Shown here in pieces: positions 47,607 through 63,251 of a stretch of 64,000 bases of DNA. This DNA comes from Opitutaceae bacterium EW11 (GTDB lineage Bacteria > Verrucomicrobiota > Verrucomicrobiia > Opitutales > Opitutaceae), in NCBI GenBank assembly GCA_003054665.1, contig QAYY01000015.1, forward strand, positions 1-64,000, given 5' to 3'. The translations under genes and the position numbers were made by a program. Under the pieces are notes generated by a model, which did not search any database, was not told where the DNA came from, and was given only the letters and a program-made list of their open reading frames with translations. Each line of letters starts with the position of its first letter. The stretch's first letter is position 1.

Positions 47607-47743
47607 AAAACCACCGGGAGCTAGGCTCTACCGGCAGCTTTTGGCGGGAGGGACCTCTTTATCGGCACGATGGGGTGGTGGCTCAATGTGAATTCGGGCA
47701 ATGGTCGCTTGAGAAGCGGGCGAGATTCCTCGTAGAAATCGTT

Positions 47744-49165
47744 ATGCGCATCCAGCCGCCGGAGGTAGAGGTTCCCGATGCGGAGCCGTTCAAGAACGCA
47801 TTATTCGGCCGAAAGACTTTCGGCCTCGAACTCACCAGCCTGCTCAGAAATATCGACGACAGCATCGTGCTTTTCGTCAATGCGCCCTGGGGCGAAGGAA
47901 AGACAACTTTCGCACGAATGTGGCGCGCACATCTCACTGCCGAGAAACTGGACGTGATCTACTATGACGCATACGCCTCCGATTATTTCGAAGACCCGTT
48001 CGTCAGCTTCTCAGGGGAAATCTTGAGTTTGGTGAAGCGGAAGTTGGCCGAAGTTGAAGGCATCACTGAGCAACAGATTGCTTTCAAAAAGACCGCGATC
48101 GAGGTCGGGAAGAAGTTGGCCGGAGTTGCCACCAAGATTGCACTGAAAGCCGCAACGATGGGTGCGGTGGACGCGAGCAACGTTGCAGAGTTGAAAGAGA
48201 TCGGGTCAGAGCTAGCCTCAGGTGTTTCGGAGGCCGGGGAGAAGATCGTGGAAAAGCGGATTGAGGAGCACCTGGCAGAAAAGGATGTGCTGAAGTCTTT
48301 TCGCGAAAACCTAAGCAAACTCGCAAAAGTCTTCCGGGAGCAGCAGGGATTTCCACTCACGATCATTGTTGATGAACTGGACCGGTGCCGGCCGAGTTTC
48401 GCTTTGGGTCTGCTGGAACGGATAAAGCACCTCTTCGACGTACCGAACGTGGCGTTCGTCCTCTTGGTCAATAGGGACCAGATCGAAAGCTACGTGCGTA
48501 CCGTTTACGGTCAGGACGTGGATGCACGGGCATACCTTCTCAAATTTGGAAACCTGTTTGTTGATTTGCCGCTTCAAGCACCCGAAACTCACCACGAGCA
48601 CGGAAAGAAGGAGTTCGTCAGAGCCGCGCTTGCTCACTATGGCCTAGAACCCCGAAATGACCGCCTTGAATCCGTTGCGCGGTCGTTGGAGTTCCTGGTC
48701 GATCACTTCGACCTTACCTTACGCGACACCGAACGGGTTCTGCTCGTACTCTCGATCTACTTAGCGTCGGTACCCGCTAACCACTTCACGGTGCCTTTCT
48801 TGGCTGTTCTCCTTGCTATTCTGAAGCTGAAGCGGCCCGAGCTCTACGAACAGCTCCGACGACAGGAGGTGAAACTCGGAGACTTCTTGGACGCGACTGG
48901 ATTGAAGAGCCGCCCTCAGGTGTCTGGTGATTCAATAAGCCCTAACTGGGTTGTTGAGCTTCTGACTTGCTGTCTCGCTACCGAAGCGGAGTTGGAAGAA
49001 TCGGAGAAGTCGGAGGACGCGTCAGCGAAGAAGACCGCGCAGAGAAGCAATCGCTTCGACGGATGGTTTTCTGGTTACAACATCGGACGCTTGCGAGTGA
49101 TTCCTTACCTGTGTGCCCGGCTCGATCGCTTTACGACGGCTCCAGCCGTTAAGCAGGCGACTTAG
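47744..49165 (+). CDS. KAP family P-loop NTPase
   Basis: The 473-aa protein belongs to the KAP NTPases. Walker A is APWGEGKTT (47-55), Walker B IIVDELDRCRPSFA (207-220), and FVLLVNRDQIESYV follows in the usual place. Unlike KAP proteins anchored by TM helices inserted in the P-loop domain, its insert (about 100-190) is a charged helical stretch with a small hydrophobic patch (GVATKIALKAATMGAV). KAP ATPases occur in defence islands. The ATG at 47744 is preferred over a GTG at 47675. It lies directly downstream of the helicase-nuclease gene. Its stop overlaps the convergent primase stop by 4 bp. Confidence 0.85.
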   Translation: MRIQPPEVEVPDAEPFKNALFGRKTFGLELTSLLRNIDDSIVLFVNAPWGEGKTTFARMWRAHLTAEKLDVIYYDAYASDYFEDPFVSFSGEILSLVKRKLAEVEGITEQQIAFKKTAIEVGKKLAGVATKIALKAATMGAVDASNVAELKEIGSELASGVSEAGEKIVEKRIEEHLAEKDVLKSFRENLSKLAKVFREQQGFPLTIIVDELDRCRPSFALGLLERIKHLFDVPNVAFVLLVNRDQIESYVRTVYGQDVDARAYLLKFGNLFVDLPLQAPETHHEHGKKEFVRAALAHYGLEPRNDRLESVARSLEFLVDHFDLTLRDTERVLLVLSIYLASVPANHFTVPFLAVLLAILKLKRPELYEQLRRQEVKLGDFLDATGLKSRPQVSGDSISPNWVVELLTCCLATEAELEESEKSEDASAKKTAQRSNRFDGWFSGYNIGRLRVIPYLCARLDRFTTAPAVKQAT

Positions 49166-51480
49166 GCCGTGGCCATTCGCATCCCTCGGACCTGCTCCCA
49201 AGAAAGTTCCGGGCAGGACCGCTGCCAACGCTTGCGTGACGCGCAGCGCTGAGACCCAAGAGACCCGTCCGGGATGCCTTCGCGCTGAAGATCCGCCTGA
49301 AAGTCTACTTGTTGTTCCTCTCGAGATTTTTTCTGGCGGTTTGCCGAGCTCTCGCCGGCCAACCGCCGCTGCTCGGCCGCGCGGAGCCGAGGCAGCTTTC
49401 CATACCGGCCCGCTCGCTGCTCATCCCAAAGGACCCGCGGAAAATCGTCGGGCTCATATCCGCGCCCGTCTCTGAATTTGTTCTGTTGGTAGCACCAGTT
49501 ACGATACAGCAGGACCGCATCTCCTAGGTGAGCCAGCCAGTGCGCCGCGTCGGTGGGCTGCAGCCTGCGGATCTGCTCGACGACGTCATCACGGGTTTTC
49601 TGCAGCATTGCCTGACGGATCGCTTCGTTGCGTTCTGCGGTCTGCCTTTTCTGTGTGTCGAGGAGGTAGCTCTGAGCAGCTTTCTTTTCCGCACAATTTT
49701 TGCCGAGAAGTTTGCCGACCAATCCGTCGATTTCTTCTGCGGGAATCCCGAGCTTCTCACAGCGCTGTTTCGCCTGAAGCAATTTCTTGCTCGCCCGGCG
49801 GGTAGGCTTCTTCTCTGCATGCGATTCGATGGAGGAAACGACAGGGAGTGGAGTCTCCTTCGGCCCTTCACAAAGGGATTCAGAGGGAGTAACACCCACC
49901 ACACCACACCTACAGTTCGTTACTGTATGTCCAGAATCAGGGATCATTGGTTTGAGGGTCCATCGTTTATTCCTCGTGGAACCAGAAATGATTACCTCGC
50001 CGGCAGCCTCCATCAGCTTCAGAGCTCGCCGCACCTGCTTTTCACAGTATGCGGTCGCGCCATCAGCATCCAAGTAGCTCGTCACCTGGAGCACGTTCGC
50101 GGCACCAAGCTGCAGAAGTGCAGCTTTAACCGCGGCGAAGCAGTTGCGGTGCACCTGGCCAAGCCCAGCGAAGGGCTCCCTGCCGTATTTTTCGTAGAGG
50201 TGGACCAGTTCCTCCCATAGCGCCGCCTCCCATCGGCTTGGCCCAAAGGTTTCTTTGAGGTACTGTATGAACGCATCGAATACAGGCGTATTCCGAACGG
50301 TCGCTTCCGCCTGTTCCGCATTTTCGCTACGAGTCCAACACTGGACAAGGAGCCGAGCAAAATACGTTCGGATATCGAATTTGGTCTGCGGGGGTAGCCA
50401 CTCGTGATCGTACCGATACCGAGCCGGGTCCTCAGGCAGGTTGCGCGGCCAGGTGAACACACGGCGACCACGCTTTCTTTCAAGCCCGCGGCCTGGTCGG
50501 TACCGCTTCTTCGAAAACACTTTCTGCACTCGATTGAGGGGAATACCCATCTCGTTGGAGACGTACTCCGCAGCGAGTGCCACGTCGGCGTCGCGAACCT
50601 CTAGACCGACGATCCCGCGCGAGACTAGATGCCGCCTTGCGAGGGTTAGCATCGTCGCAATCTCGACTTTGTCTTCCGCGTGACTCCCTCCAGTACTCTT
50701 GCGGCACCCCTTCCCGCACTCAGTTGTTGGAGTTGGGCGCGTTTCTGCGTCTGCCCAATACCAATGATGGTTTAACCCAGCACTATCGCTGCAGAGACCT
50801 GCTGATGCATCGACCGGTGCGTACCAGGTTGGAACGGCATTGCGGCGCGATGCGTAACCGCAGGGCAACCGGAAGAGGTGACCATCATGCGCGGCTGCTC
50901 GGCCATCTTTACAGAAGTGCGTGCCGACATCGTATGCCGCACCCTCGATCAGCCTTTCGATCTCACGCCCAATTTGGTACGCCTTGCCGATCGACGCCTC
51001 CCAAGACATCGCTGAAGGAATCTCGTAGTACAGCGTAACTCCATTCGAGTGAACGAGGATCGCCCCGGGGAATCGCTCCCGAAGTCTGGTGACGTCCGCG
51101 TCTGTAGCGACTCGGCCCTCGAAATCGATGTCGATCGCGACCAAGTATGTCCGCAACACACATCCCGAATTTTGATTCTGCTTTCGAGATTTGCCGCGCA
51201 AATACGAAGCGGGGCTCGCAGTGATTTTTTCCTGCGGGTACAGCTCGGCGAGTTGCGGAAGATCACTGACCAAACACAGAAAGGTGCCACCGGCTCGCCG
51301 CTTCGGTTCCTGCTTAAAACAAATCGTGACCGGCTTCGACGAGTCACTCGGGTGATAGCAGACCCTCTCGAGTTCACCTATTTGCACGCGCACATGCGCG
51401 TCTGCCGGCGCATATCGGTACGCGAGAAACGAGCGTAGCTGATCCAGACAAGCCATTGCGGCACACGCCGCCGGTCCCAT
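49162..51480 (-). CDS. AEP-type primase / replication protein
   Basis: The 772-aa protein has an archaeo-eukaryotic-primase-like N-terminal domain. The acidic pair is in VAIDIDFEG (about residues 117 and 119), followed by ILVHSNGVTLYYEIPS and then HLFRLPCGYASR, the order seen in plasmid and phage prim-pol proteins. A middle region may be winged-helix (YCEKQVRRALKLMEAAGEVI). A charged C-terminal tail resembles other element-replication proteins. It probably primes or initiates DNA synthesis of the excised element. No helicase motif is seen. ATG codons at 51480 and 51456 are both possible. Confidence 0.6.
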   Translation of the reverse strand: MGPAACAAMACLDQLRSFLAYRYAPADAHVRVQIGELERVCYHPSDSSKPVTICFKQEPKRRAGGTFLCLVSDLPQLAELYPQEKITASPASYLRGKSRKQNQNSGCVLRTYLVAIDIDFEGRVATDADVTRLRERFPGAILVHSNGVTLYYEIPSAMSWEASIGKAYQIGREIERLIEGAAYDVGTHFCKDGRAAAHDGHLFRLPCGYASRRNAVPTWYAPVDASAGLCSDSAGLNHHWYWADAETRPTPTTECGKGCRKSTGGSHAEDKVEIATMLTLARRHLVSRGIVGLEVRDADVALAAEYVSNEMGIPLNRVQKVFSKKRYRPGRGLERKRGRRVFTWPRNLPEDPARYRYDHEWLPPQTKFDIRTYFARLLVQCWTRSENAEQAEATVRNTPVFDAFIQYLKETFGPSRWEAALWEELVHLYEKYGREPFAGLGQVHRNCFAAVKAALLQLGAANVLQVTSYLDADGATAYCEKQVRRALKLMEAAGEVIISGSTRNKRWTLKPMIPDSGHTVTNCRCGVVGVTPSESLCEGPKETPLPVVSSIESHAEKKPTRRASKKLLQAKQRCEKLGIPAEEIDGLVGKLLGKNCAEKKAAQSYLLDTQKRQTAERNEAIRQAMLQKTRDDVVEQIRRLQPTDAAHWLAHLGDAVLLYRNWCYQQNKFRDGRGYEPDDFPRVLWDEQRAGRYGKLPRLRAAEQRRLAGESSANRQKKSREEQQVDFQADLQREGIPDGSLGSQRCASRKRWQRSCPELSWEQVRGMRMATA

Positions 51481-51558
51481 GCATGGACGCCAGGCCAAGG
51501 CTCCCCAGGCTCACACCAGGGCAGCACCAAGCCGCGTCACGCGAAGGGACGCGGCGAG

Positions 51559-52513: not shown

Positions 52514-52883
52514 GATGGAAGAGCCGAAAAACGTAGGGCCGCTCCCGAGGTTGTAAATGGAATTCTCCGGCACACCGACCTGGTCTCCTGTTCGAAGAAA
52601 ACGCCGGCAGGCTGCGAGCAACCGGCCTCGGCGAGCTGCCGACAAATGCACGGGCCTTTCTGGACTGAGTCCCGACCCCGACGAAAAAAACTTCCGCCAT
52701 TTTTGAACGGCTCGGCGACTGCCGCGTCTCTCTCACCGTTAGTTACCCGTTCTTTTTTGTAGTCCATAGTTTGTAGTTCAAAGTCGGCAAGGGCGCTGGT
52801 TTTCACCAGCGCCCTTACTGTTTTACGGAGCCCAGGCTGCGTGCTTGCACCAGCGACCACGCGGAGTTTTGACTGGGCGCGCC
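52514..52883. other. Intergenic region with a strong hairpin
   Basis: This is 370 bp between tRNA-Leu and rsmE with no gene. It contains an 11-bp perfect inverted repeat AAGGGCGCTGG / CCAGCGCCCTT (52789-52816, loop TTTTCA) followed by a short ACTGTTTT. It is a possible terminator before rsmE. The rest should hold the tRNA and rsmE promoters. Confidence 0.5.
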
Positions 52884-53642
52884 ATGCCCGACTTCCGAGC
52901 CTTCTGCCGCCCCAGTGAACGTGAACCGGCCGAGATCCGCCTGTCCGCAGACGAGTCTCACCACTTGGTCAACGTGAACCGCGCCCACGTCGGCGACACG
53001 GTCGTCGCGTTTGACGGAGCCGGCACGGAGTGGATCTGCGAGCTCGTTTCCGACGCAAAGGCAGGAGCGGCGCTGAAGGTGCGCTTCAGCCAGAAAATCA
53101 AACCGCTGCCCTACGAAATTACGCTGGGGCAAGCGCTTCCGAAGGGTCCCTCGATGGACGCGATCGTGCGGAAGGCCACCGAGCTCGGCGCAAAACGCAT
53201 TGTCCCGCTCGAGAGTGAACGCACCCAGGTGCACCTCGACGGCGAGCGTCAGGACAAGAAAATCGAGAAGTGGCAAACCGCCGCGCTCGAGGCCGCCAAG
53301 CAGTGCGGAAACGCCTGGCTTCCGGAGATTCTCCCGATCGAACACGCCTCGGACTTCATGGAAAAAAGCCGCGGCTACGATCTGAAGCTGATCGCCAGCC
53401 TCCAACCCGGCGCCAAGTCGTTGAAATCGGTTTTGTCCACCTATCGCGCCACCACCGGCAAAGCGCCGCAGCGCGTTCTGTGGCTGATCGGGCCTGAGGG
53501 CGATTTCACTCCCGCCGAAATGAGCCAATCGAAGAGCACCGGGTTCGAGCCTATCGGCCTCGGACCTTTGGTGCTTCGCTGCGAAACCGCCGCCGTTTAC
53601 GCGCTAAGCGTGCTCAGCTACGAGCTTCAGAATCCCTCCTGA
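52884..53642 (+). CDS. rsmE: 16S rRNA (uracil-1498-N3)-methyltransferase RsmE
   Basis: The 252-aa SPOUT methyltransferase methylates N3 of U1498 in 16S rRNA using SAM. The N-terminal PUA-like domain has LSADESHHLVNVNRAHVGDTVVAFDG. The SPOUT knot region has LWLIGPEGDFTPAEM (trefoil-knot SAM pocket) and LGPLVLRCETAAVYALSVL, both diagnostic. Length is normal for the family. The ATG at 52884 fits the family N terminus; 13 upstream residues are extra. Confidence 0.93.
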   Translation: MPDFRAFCRPSEREPAEIRLSADESHHLVNVNRAHVGDTVVAFDGAGTEWICELVSDAKAGAALKVRFSQKIKPLPYEITLGQALPKGPSMDAIVRKATELGAKRIVPLESERTQVHLDGERQDKKIEKWQTAALEAAKQCGNAWLPEILPIEHASDFMEKSRGYDLKLIASLQPGAKSLKSVLSTYRATTGKAPQRVLWLIGPEGDFTPAEMSQSKSTGFEPIGLGPLVLRCETAAVYALSVLSYELQNPS

Positions 53643-53838: not shown

Positions 53839-55413
53839 TCACCAAACCAGCAGGCCGCCGGCAAAGGTCAGTCCGGCACCCACGCTGCAGAAGATGATCT
53901 TGTCTCCGGCGTTGAAGATGCCCTCCTCCGCCGCCCAGCCGAGAGCCATCGAGACGCTGGCCGCACTGGTGTTTCCGTATTTCCCGATCGTGACGACAAA
54001 CCGCTCGTAGGGGATGCCCACGCGTTTGCTGACCGCCCTCAGGATTCGCTCGTTGGCCTGGTGAGGGACGATCCACGCGATGTCCTCCGGTTTCAGCTGG
54101 TGGCGCGCAAGGGTCTTCTCGATCTCGTCCGCGAAGGCGATGACCGCGTGCTTGAACACAGCGGCGCCGTTCATCTGCAGGAAAAAGTCGTCGCGATCGA
54201 TGCCCTCGGGATGCGGGAACGGCCGGGTCGCTCCACCGCCGGGCCGCTGGATCGCACAGAACTGTTCTGCATCGCCCGACAGCGCCATGCGGCCGAGGCG
54301 ATGGCCTCCCGGTGCGTCCGTGAGGATGGCGGCACCGGCGCCGTCGCCGAAGAGAAAAGCCGTCGCGTGGTCCTTGGGATTGGTGATGCGCGAAAGCAGT
54401 TCGGCCGTGACGACGATCAGCTTCTTCGCCGTGCCGGACCGAATGAAGGCGCGGCCCACTTCGAGGGCGTAGAGCCACCCGGCGCAGGCAGCGTTGAGGT
54501 CGAATGCGAGGGCGCGGGGGATGCCCAATTGTTTGGCGAGCGCGCTGGCCATCGAAGGCACCGGCTGGTCGGGAATCAGCGTCGCCATGATCACGCCGTC
54601 GATCTCGCCGACCGGCACGTTGGCCTGTTTGAGGGCATGCTGCACGGCGGTCGCGGCAAGGCTCGTGGCGGTTTCGCCGTTGGAAGCATACCGGCGTTCA
54701 CGGATGCCCGTCAGCTTGATGACCTCGGCCTCCGTCATGTCCGGGAAAGCCTTCAGAATCTCGCTGTTCGAACGAACTCCGCTCGGGAAAGCGTAGCCTA
54801 CTCCGGCGATGCAGACCGTCTCGTTCGCATGGGGCAGAAACCCGGACGAAGAGGGAGCCTTCGCGGCGGCGGCAGCGGGGGCGGAACGCACCTTTTCCAA
54901 ATAGCGGGCGACATCGTCGCCGGAAACGCGGCCTCCCGGACCCGTCGCTTCGATGTCCGTGATCTTCGCCGGATCGAGGCCGGCATCCGTCGCGAGCTTG
55001 GCCGCCCGGGGCGTCCATTGGGGGCCTGACGAAACCTTCGCCGCCGCCGGCGCGGGAATGTGCGGTGTGGCGACCGGAACGCTGGGGGGCGTCTGCGCGG
55101 CGACCTTGGGCGCAGTCGTGGCCGGCGGAACCGTCGCCTTCGTTTCGAGGTGTTTCAAAGCCACATCCGACGTCTCAATCCGGAGAAACGGAGCGCCCGA
55201 CGGAAGAATGTCACCGGCCCGGCCGATCACGTCGCGCACGGTGCCGTCGCAGGGCGATTCAAACTCGAAGACGGACTTATCGCTCTCCAACTCGGCCAGT
55301 TTTTGCCCCTTCTTCACGGCGGCTCCGGCAGTGACCGTGATGTCGATCACGGTCAGCTCGTGTACGGTGGCGCCCATGGAGGGCACAGGCACTTCGATCA
55401 GAAACGTTTCCAT
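53839..55413 (-). CDS. Lipoyl-domain / E3-binding-domain / 3-oxoacyl-ACP synthase III fusion
   Basis: This 524-aa protein joins three modules. Residues 1-82 are a lipoyl/biotinyl domain with Lys46 in LAELESDKSVF. An Ala/Pro linker follows. Residues 133-174 match the peripheral subunit (E3)-binding domain of 2-oxo-acid dehydrogenase E2 (TPRAAKLATDAGLDPAKI then GPGGRVSGDDVARYL). After a second linker, residues 195-524 are a FabH-type KAS III with catalytic Cys310 (NAACAGW), His451 (PHQANERIL) and Asn481 (KYGNTSAAS). It is E2-like, with the acyltransferase core replaced by KAS III, suggesting use of an acyl-lipoyl primer for fatty-acid or polyketide initiation. That is inference. Confidence 0.85.
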   Translation of the reverse strand: METFLIEVPVPSMGATVHELTVIDITVTAGAAVKKGQKLAELESDKSVFEFESPCDGTVRDVIGRAGDILPSGAPFLRIETSDVALKHLETKATVPPATTAPKVAAQTPPSVPVATPHIPAPAAAKVSSGPQWTPRAAKLATDAGLDPAKITDIEATGPGGRVSGDDVARYLEKVRSAPAAAAAKAPSSSGFLPHANETVCIAGVGYAFPSGVRSNSEILKAFPDMTEAEVIKLTGIRERRYASNGETATSLAATAVQHALKQANVPVGEIDGVIMATLIPDQPVPSMASALAKQLGIPRALAFDLNAACAGWLYALEVGRAFIRSGTAKKLIVVTAELLSRITNPKDHATAFLFGDGAGAAILTDAPGGHRLGRMALSGDAEQFCAIQRPGGGATRPFPHPEGIDRDDFFLQMNGAAVFKHAVIAFADEIEKTLARHQLKPEDIAWIVPHQANERILRAVSKRVGIPYERFVVTIGKYGNTSAASVSMALGWAAEEGIFNAGDKIIFCSVGAGLTFAGGLLVW

Positions 55414-60617: not shown

Positions 60618-61415
60618 TTACTTCTGCCGCACGACGCGCCAGATCCGGACACAATCTTCGAGTAGCGCGGGGAGCTCCGACAACGGGATCATGTTGGGCC
60701 CGTCGCTGATCGCCTCGGCAGGATTTGGATGCGTCTCGAGAAACAGTCCCTCGGCTCCCGCAGCCAGGGCGGCGCGGGCCAGCGGCGGAACGAATTCGCG
60801 CTGGCCGCCGCTCTTGCCGCCGGCAGCGCCCGGAAGCTGCACACTGTGGGTCGCGTCGAAAACCGTGGGAAAACCGTTGGCGCGCATGATCGAGAACGAC
60901 CGCATGTCCACGACCAGGTTTTGATAGCCGAACGTCGTGCCGCGCTCCGTCTGCCAGATCTCCGCGGCGTTCCCATCGCGCAGTTTGCCGGTGACGAAAA
61001 CCATCTCCTGCGGCGAAAGAAACTGACCTTTTTTCACGTTCACCACCCTCCCCGTAGCTGCGGCGGCGAGGAGCAGGTCGGTCTGCCGGCAGAGAAAGGC
61101 CGGGATCTGCACGACGTCGCACACCGCCGCGACCGCCGCGACTTGGCTGCTCTCGTGCACGTCAGTCAGCACGGGGAAGCCGTACTCGCGTTTGATGAGC
61201 GCGAGCAGCTTCAGCCCCTCTTCCATCCCGGTGCCGCGAGCGCCCGCCAGCGAAGTCCGGTTCGCTTTGTCGAACGAGCCCTTGAACACGATGTTGAGTT
61301 CGGGGAGCGACTTCTGGGCGGAACGAAGGGATTCGGCGACGGCACGGCAAACGCGTTCGTTTTCCAGCGAGCAAGGTCCGGCGATGAGCAGCAGCTTGGT
61401 GGGATCGAAAAGCAT
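60618..61415 (-). CDS. kdsA: 3-deoxy-D-manno-octulosonate 8-phosphate synthase (KdsA)
   Basis: The 265-aa enzyme condenses phosphoenolpyruvate with arabinose 5-phosphate to form Kdo-8-phosphate for lipopolysaccharide core synthesis. Diagnostic segments are [50 protein letters not shown] and [10 protein letters not shown]. Cys in FLCRQ and related residues place it with the metal-dependent type II-like group, but that is uncertain. It lies 41 bp downstream of pyrG, same strand, an arrangement common in many bacteria. Confidence 0.95.
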
Positions 61416-61456: not shown

Positions 61457-63094
61457 TCAGGCCTTGGATTTCTTCTGAACCTTGCGCGCGGACTTCACCG
61501 AAGGCTTCTGAGTCTTCACCGCGGCGGCGATGAACGCCTTGAACAGCGGATGCGGCTGGTTCGGCTTCGACTGAAACTCGGGATGGAACTGTACCGCGAC
61601 GAACCACGGATGGTTCTTCAGCTCGATGATCTCGACGAGATTCCGACGGGGGTTCACGCCGCTGATCACCATGCCCGCCTTCTGAAGCTGGCTGACGTAG
61701 CTGTTGTTCACCTCGTAACGGTGGCGATGGCGCTCGCGGATGCTCTCTTGAGCGTAAGCTTTTCCGGCCAGCGTGCCCGGCGTGAGCGCGCATTCGTAAC
61801 TGCCGAGCCGCATGGTCGCGCCCTTGTCGATGATCTTCTTCTGGTCCTCCATCATGTTGATCACGGGATGGGGGGCGTTGACGTCGAACTCGGTGCTGTT
61901 GGCGCCTTCGAGTTTCAGGACGTTCCGCGAAAACTCGATGACGGCGATCTGCAGGCCGAGGCAAAGGCCGTAGTACGGGATTTTCTTCTCACGGGCATAG
62001 CGGGCCGCGGCGATCTTGCCCTCTGTGCCGCGGTCGCCAAAGCCGCCGGGTACGAGGATGCCGTCGAGGTTCTTCAGCACCGCGAGGCCGTTCTTTTTCT
62101 CCAAGTCCTCCGCATCGATGCGCACGATGTTGACCTTGCAGTTGTTCGCGATGCCCGCGTGGGTGACCGACTCGTAGACGGATTTGTAGGCGTCCTGGAG
62201 CTCGATGTATTTGCCGACCACGCCGATCGTGACTTCGTGAGCCGGATTCTGGATACGGGTGACGATCTCTTCCCAGATATTCTTTTTCGGCAGCGGATTC
62301 TGCAGGCCGAAAAGATCGATCACCAACTGGTCCATGCCCTCCTTCTGCAGGGCGACCGGCAATTCGTAGATCGACGACACGTCGCGACACTCGATGACGG
62401 CCTTCACCGGCACGTTGCAGAACATCGAGAGCTTGTCGCGAAGGCCAGGATCGAGCGGATGGTCGCAGCGGCAAACGAGGATGTGCGGCTGGATTCCGAT
62501 CTCGCGGAGCTTCGCGACCGACTGCTGCGTGGGCTTGGTCTTGAGCTCGCCGGCCGCCGCAAGGAACGGGACCAGCGTCACGTGGATGAAAATCACGTCC
62601 TTCGGGCCGACTTCCAAAGCGAACTGGCGCATCGCCTCGAGGAACGGCAAGCCCTCGATGTCACCGGTCGTGCCGCCGATCTCGGTAATCAGGACATCGA
62701 CGTCCTTCGCCGCCTGGTAAATGCGCTCCTTGATCTCGTTCGTGACGTGCGGAATCACCTGCACCGTCTTCCCGAGAAACGCGCCGCGGCGCTCTTTCTG
62801 GATCACGCTCTCGTACACTTGACCGGAGGTCAGGTTGTTGAGCCGCGACAGCTTGCCGCTGGTAAACCGCTCATAGTGCCCCAGGTCCAGGTCGGTCTCG
62901 GCGCCGTCCTCCAGCACGTACACTTCGCCATGCTGGAAAGGGCTCATCGTGCCCGGATCCACGTTCAGGTACGGGTCGAATTTCTGGATGCGCACGGTCA
63001 GTCCGCGCATCTCCAGCAGCGCACCGAGCGCTGCCGCCGTGAGGCCTTTCCCCAGCGAAGAAACAACTCCGCCTGTGACGAAAATGTACTTCAT
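61457..63094 (-). CDS. pyrG: CTP synthase (PyrG)
   Basis: The 545-aa enzyme makes CTP from UTP, ATP and glutamine. The synthetase domain starts [18 protein letters not shown] (P-loop-like) with [22 protein letters not shown] and [10 protein letters not shown]. The class I glutamine amidotransferase domain has PGGFGDRG, the nucleophile Cys in YGLCLGLQ and the His in [12 protein letters not shown] basic tail ([14 protein letters not shown]) is an extension. The start at 63094 is fixed by the family N terminus; the 47-residue longer frame is excluded. Confidence 0.97.
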
Positions 63095-63251
63095 CGGAAT
63101 GGGATATGAAGCGCCCGGAAACCATACAAGAAAAAGGTAGGCTCCACCGCGCGGCATAAGCGGCGCACGCACGATTCGGTAGGCCTGCAGAACCCGGCGG
63201 AGTACGCTCGCGCATGCCGATTTCGTGCGGGGCACCGACGCACCGGCGCGT

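Follow-up and report, generated by a model that had tools for sequence, protein, structure and literature searches.

In textbook accounts, 2-oxo-acid dehydrogenase complexes pass their acyl group to CoA, and the primer of FabH is an acyl-CoA. The 64,000-nucleotide stretch of Opitutaceae bacterium EW11 DNA analysed here (the window) encodes one protein combining parts of both systems, a ketosynthase preceded by lipoyl and peripheral subunit-binding (PSBD) domains, which raises the question of where this ketosynthase obtains its starter group. The genome evidence described below suggests that the fusion takes the starter directly from the lipoyl arm, not from coenzyme A.

The fusion is encoded by a single ORF with an ATG start (53839..55413, minus strand, as are all features of the protein given below) and comprises 524 residues. 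Residues 7-79 (55177..55395) form a lipoyl domain (Pfam Biotin_lipoyl, 6.2e-14) in which alignment identifies Lys46 (55276..55278), within the motif DKS, as the predicted lipoylation site. An Ala/Pro-rich linker of a length that differs among relatives (residues 80-132; 55018..55176) leads to the PSBD (Pfam E3_binding, residues 134-168, 2.9e-7; 54910..55014), and a second linker rich in Ala, Pro and Ser (residues 173-197; 54823..54897) leads to the FabH/KAS III core (residues 198-524; 53842..54822), delimited with Pfam, NCBIfam and alignment to solved FabHs. The core was matched by ACP_syn_III at residues 304-378 (1.7e-24) and ACP_syn_III_C at residues 435-524 (2.8e-31), all four Pfam matches being above the curated cut-offs, and residues 199-524 by the NCBIfam model for beta-ketoacyl-ACP synthase 3 (1.3e-93). 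It contains the catalytic nucleophile Cys310 (54484..54486) and the catalytic residues His451 (54061..54063) and Asn481 (53971..53973). The first-pass annotation had described a lipoyl domain with Lys46, a PSBD at residues 133-174 and a FabH core with Cys310, His451 and Asn481 in one frame; the residues are where it placed them, the KAS III core is complete and the three domains lie in the same chain. Residues 5-195 matched a pyruvate dehydrogenase (PDH) E2 model (1.4e-21) below that model's full-length cut-off, and a Pfam search found no PF00198, the catalytic CoA acyltransferase core, in the protein. An AlphaFold model, moderately reliable (mean pLDDT 73) and built on a shallow alignment, has FabH structures as its best fold matches in the PDB.

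When 84,980 species genomes were scanned, 80 loci were obtained; with the window, these were parsed into 36 fused forms, 28 split forms, 14 with the lipoyl-PSBD gene alone and 2 with KAS III alone. The wider search for the domain architecture that the first-pass annotation had called for thus found the fusion in 35 further genomes, together with split and lipoyl-only forms. Since the fusion recurs in all of these, among them the genome of an isolate, Ereboglobus sp. PH5-10 (L007), an assembly error as its source was ruled out. In the split form the lipoyl-PSBD gene is followed directly by the KAS III gene, the two overlapping or abutting at L063, L064 and L083; one locus counted as split (L037) has merely one in-frame stop, and the genome presumed to be Opitutus terrae PB90-1 (G148) carries the split form. 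Judged by sequence, the fused and adjacent split loci are a Rosetta-stone pair. A quick tree of the KAS III domains, with SH-aLRT support only, placed the fused forms basally with one change to the split form, L037 aside. The Opitutaceae are bacteria of soil, freshwater and gut. With a lipoyl-PSBD profile at E <= 1e-30, 34 of 388 Verrucomicrobiota genomes matched, all of them Opitutaceae, and this half is present in 34 of the 36 Opitutaceae in that phylum sample. As a separate observation, the KAS III encoded at L051:9977-11008 has no lipoyl gene beside it; the genome is a MAG of 5.2 Mb in which KAS III was matched three times.

Where flanks were long enough, the gene order was mostly pyrG-kdsA-[lipoyl-PSBD(-KAS III)]-rsmE with rsmE on the opposite strand. 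In the window the convergent neighbour rsmE (16S rRNA methyltransferase) lies at 52845..53642 on the plus strand, and kdsA (DAHP_synth_1 family; 60618..61415) and the conserved upstream gene pyrG (CTP synthase, named from sequence; 61457..63235) lie on the minus strand; the first two were assigned by Pfam and locus comparison and pyrG by locus comparison. Other genes separate kdsA from the fusion here, whereas in many relatives kdsA directly precedes the lipoyl gene. Elsewhere in the window (47675-51498) a P-loop NTPase-like ORF on the plus strand adjoins a 778-residue ORF on the minus strand with the look of a replication protein, possibly a mobile element.

In order to compare the lipoyl-associated KAS III (KAS III-2) with canonical FabH, 66 KAS III-2 domains were aligned with 19 canonical FabHs of the same family. 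Cys112, His244, Asn274, Asn247 and Arg249 (E. coli numbering, here and below) are invariant in both groups (66/66 and 19/19), and Cys310, His451, Asn481 and Arg456 of the fusion occupy positions conserved in 66/66 domains. Arg456 (54046..54048) is the equivalent of Arg249 which, with Lys214, we take to be an ACP contact; the Lys214 position holds Lys in 64 domains and Arg in 2. The residues that contact CoA follow another pattern. In FabH, Trp32 and Arg151 flank the CoA adenine in a stack, with further CoA contacts made by Thr28 and Arg36 (PMC4606726). All four are kept in the 19 canonical FabHs, whereas in KAS III-2 Trp32 is replaced by Glu (61/66), Arg36 by Leu (62/66) or Ile (3), Arg151 by His (60/66) and Thr28 by Arg (57) or Met (7), with none of Trp32, Arg36 and Arg151 retained in any of the 66 aligned domains. 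Aligned to solved FabHs, the window protein itself shows these replacements: Glu230 for Trp32 (54724..54726), Leu234 for Arg36 (54712..54714) and His349 for Arg151 (54367..54369). Since the triad and Arg249 are kept and the CoA contacts are lost, KAS III-2 seems to have all it needs for catalysis and for meeting ACP but, as far as residues alone can tell, to have lost the means of holding CoA.

The fusion is not the cell's sole FabH, a possibility ruled out by a canonical FabH, 41% identical, encoded at C27:302728-303735 of the EW11 genome behind a PlsX-like gene (named by sequence). A distant KAS III-like protein (23%) is also encoded at L105:7471-9416 (EW11 C5, about 319470-321415), preceded by a FabI-like reductase and followed by an alpha/beta hydrolase; judged by eye, that locus resembles OleA/OleB of olefin synthesis.

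The lipoylation motif [DE]KS is present in all 78 aligned sequences of the lipoyl-PSBD half, the window included. The PSBD begins with an invariant WTP, but the Arg of the usual SPxxR motif, present in the PDH and 2-oxoglutarate dehydrogenase (OGDH) E2s of the EW11 genome itself, is replaced, mostly by T, A, I or V (commonest residues among the 78). With the usual Arg missing, docking of E1 or E3 by this domain is unproved.

If the lipoyl arm is the donor, an E1 is expected to load it. The EW11 genome encodes PDH (E1 alpha, E1 beta and E2) and OGDH with E3, and since both of their E2s are present, replacement of either by the fusion was ruled out. It also encodes a 683-residue fused E1-alpha-beta (C3:661460-663508) beside a KdsC-like gene. 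Three PSBD proteins were found against only two catalytic E2 domains, those of PDH and OGDH with PF00198 at other places than the fusion, which leaves the fused E1-alpha-beta without a catalytic E2 of its own. Thus the check for E1 and E3 genes elsewhere in the genome yielded an E1 lacking an E2, and an E3 with OGDH. No E1 was found in the fusion's own operon at the loci searched; a simple motif test placed a KdsC-like gene beside E1-alpha-beta at 23 of 30 loci. Three genomes alone have E1-alpha-beta in the vicinity of the fusion, at a distance of ~12-15 kb: G386, G474 and G270, in the last of which the interval spans the origin. Separately, an orphan E1 alpha/beta pair without an E2 is located among polysaccharide/heptose-biosynthesis-like genes at L101:7762-9808 (EW11 C13:159761-161807).

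Of the 388 Verrucomicrobiota genomes, those with an orthologue of E1-alpha-beta (at least 56% identity, the next E1s being about 33% or less) are precisely the 34 with the lipoyl-PSBD gene, and both genes are missing from the same two Opitutaceae of that sample. In a wider family sample of 59 scorable genomes, from which two with a KAS III fragment alone were excluded, 53 hold both E1-alpha-beta and the lipoyl half, 4 hold neither and 2, which are 87% and 83% complete, disagree (Fisher p 5e-5, a value inflated by shared descent within one family). These results are strong evidence that E1-alpha-beta and the lipoyl half are a working pair, the physical interaction being inferred.

The reading that best survives beside direct transfer, although we consider it unlikely, is that the lipoyl domain and PSBD only dock KAS III on a dehydrogenase complex, or sense its acylation, while the donor is still neighbouring acyl-CoA. 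Both domains are known docking modules and the intact triad of KAS III is consistent with such a role; nevertheless, the CoA contacts kept in every canonical paralogue are lost in nearly all 66 KAS III-2 domains, and the EW11 genome has no third catalytic E2 to supply a separate acyl-CoA.

Since lipoyl-PSBD is kept without an adjoining KAS III at 14 loci, the lipoyl half serves some purpose even where KAS III-2 is absent. Thirteen of these 14 genomes have just the canonical (~40%) FabH and one has no match, and in all of them there must be another destination for the acyl group. In the E1 tree the genomes without KAS III were placed among those with the split form. Of the 14 family genomes devoid of KAS III-2, 10 have a third catalytic E2, as against 3 of the 47 that possess KAS III-2 (not counting a partial second match within one of the PDH regions in G465), and it is present in 4 of 4 family-sample genomes lacking both E1-alpha-beta and the lipoyl half. 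It lies mostly within an E1-alpha-E1-beta-lipoyl-acyltransferase polyprotein, the domains of which were checked in two. The pattern suggests that this polyprotein, by supplying acyl-CoA to canonical FabH, serves the same purpose as the lipoyl-KAS III route, although the events are too few for a phylogeny-aware test, KAS III-2 having been lost independently only about twice. Polyproteins of this type (~1050-1100 residues) are encoded at L252:1806-5033 and L253:1772-4906 (G067 and G109) and in nine more family genomes, mainly without KAS III-2.

The cultured Opitutaceae for which data are available are rich in iso and anteiso fatty acids (PMC5303756, PMC12193912). The genome presumed to be that of Lacunisphaera limnophila (G321), with ~60% branched acids, has no lipoyl-KAS III module, which indicates that such acids do not require the module and that it would be one way among others of making them; the E1-lipoyl-E2 polyprotein was not seen in 100 sampled 20 kb stretches of that genome, about half of its length. 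Branched starters are most likely the substrates of the module, an inference. It is also conceivable, if somewhat more doubtful than docking alone, that transfer from the lipoyl arm is direct but that E1 makes an acetyl, propionyl or glutaryl group, for a straight-chain starter or a BioZ-like biotin precursor. The NCBIfam models scoring highest with the E1 halves are those for PDH E1, all below cut-off, and BioZ is among the structures that match the KAS III. Generic FabH structures are better matches than BioZ, however, alpha chains of branched-chain dehydrogenase (BCKDH) gave the E1 alpha half its best scores (123 bits for the human chain, against 86 for PDH alpha), the EW11 genome has a separate PDH, and the family is rich in branched acids. 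Least probable is a primer drawn from acyl-ACP or another carrier, with the lipoyl domain serving for example in redox or regulation of E1. In its favour, Arg249 and Lys214 are kept, the loss of CoA contacts suits an acyl-ACP donor equally, and among the fold matches of the model an E. coli FabH-acyl-ACP structure ranks second; but both the co-occurrence with E1-alpha-beta and the lipoyl lysine conserved in 78/78 sequences are left unexplained.

In the favoured mechanism, the fusion would serve an unusual 2-oxo-acid dehydrogenase complex as its acyl-acceptor subunit, with KAS III in place of the E2 CoA-acyltransferase core. The dedicated E1-alpha-beta would decarboxylate a 2-oxo acid, the likeliest being a branched one derived from Val, Leu or Ile, and acylate the lipoyl group on Lys46; the arm would hand the acyl group to Cys310, and KAS III would condense it with malonyl-ACP to give 3-oxoacyl-ACP. 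Fatty-acid synthesis, perhaps of branched chains, would then begin without free acyl-CoA, and the dihydrolipoyl group would be reoxidized by an E3 common to the other complexes. Resting on an architecture, conservation, a co-occurring E1, the lack of a dedicated E2 and a loss of CoA contacts that are all established, a lipoyl-fed KAS III replacing the E2 core is the probable explanation as a whole, in which lipoylation, acyl transfer, the substrate and the role of E3 are inferred. The first-pass annotation's reading of an E2-like FabH gains support from the E1 without an E2, the lack of a third catalytic E2 in EW11, the adjacent split genes, the lost CoA contacts beside a kept triad, and the branched acids of the family.

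The fusion shares with the E2s of PDH, OGDH and BCKDH an N-terminal lipoyl domain, a flexible Ala/Pro linker, a PSBD, a C-terminal acyl-acceptor enzyme and a co-occurring E1, but differs in that the core is KAS III without PF00198, the acceptor would be malonyl-ACP and not CoA, and the PSBD is without the SPxxR Arg. It resembles the FabH/KAS III enzymes of E. coli, S. aureus and B. subtilis in its thiolase fold, Cys-His-Asn triad and Arg249/Lys214, but not in the fused or adjacent lipoyl-PSBD module, the replaced Trp32, Arg36, Arg151 and Thr28 or the coexistence with a canonical FabH. The split or stand-alone form, composed of lipoyl and PSBD domains without acyltransferase activity, is similar to the eukaryotic PDH E3-binding protein (protein X), which has another core and no known partner ketosynthase. 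BioZ (3-oxopimeloyl-ACP synthase) is likewise a KAS III with a non-acetyl primer, yet it has no lipoyl module and binds glutaryl-CoA in solved structures. The first-pass annotation knew of no characterised example, and no published one was found: a literature search that omits most subscription journals returned no paper pairing a lipoyl domain with a ketosynthase or with a fused ketoacyl-ACP synthase III, and on related topics no relevant case was apparent from titles and abstracts.

With marginally less assurance than the explanation itself, we judge it rather likely that these proteins represent a new class of 2-oxo-acid dehydrogenase complex, one whose acyl acceptor is a Claisen-condensing ketosynthase and which allows CoA-free initiation of (branched) fatty acids from a 2-oxo acid. 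If so, the lipoyl swinging arm would have a new use, and the module may be a part for engineered branched-acid synthesis. In the Opitutaceae it would provide a concrete route for starting branched fatty acids, in which the CoA step is removed and branched-chain keto acids would be channelled directly into membrane lipids.
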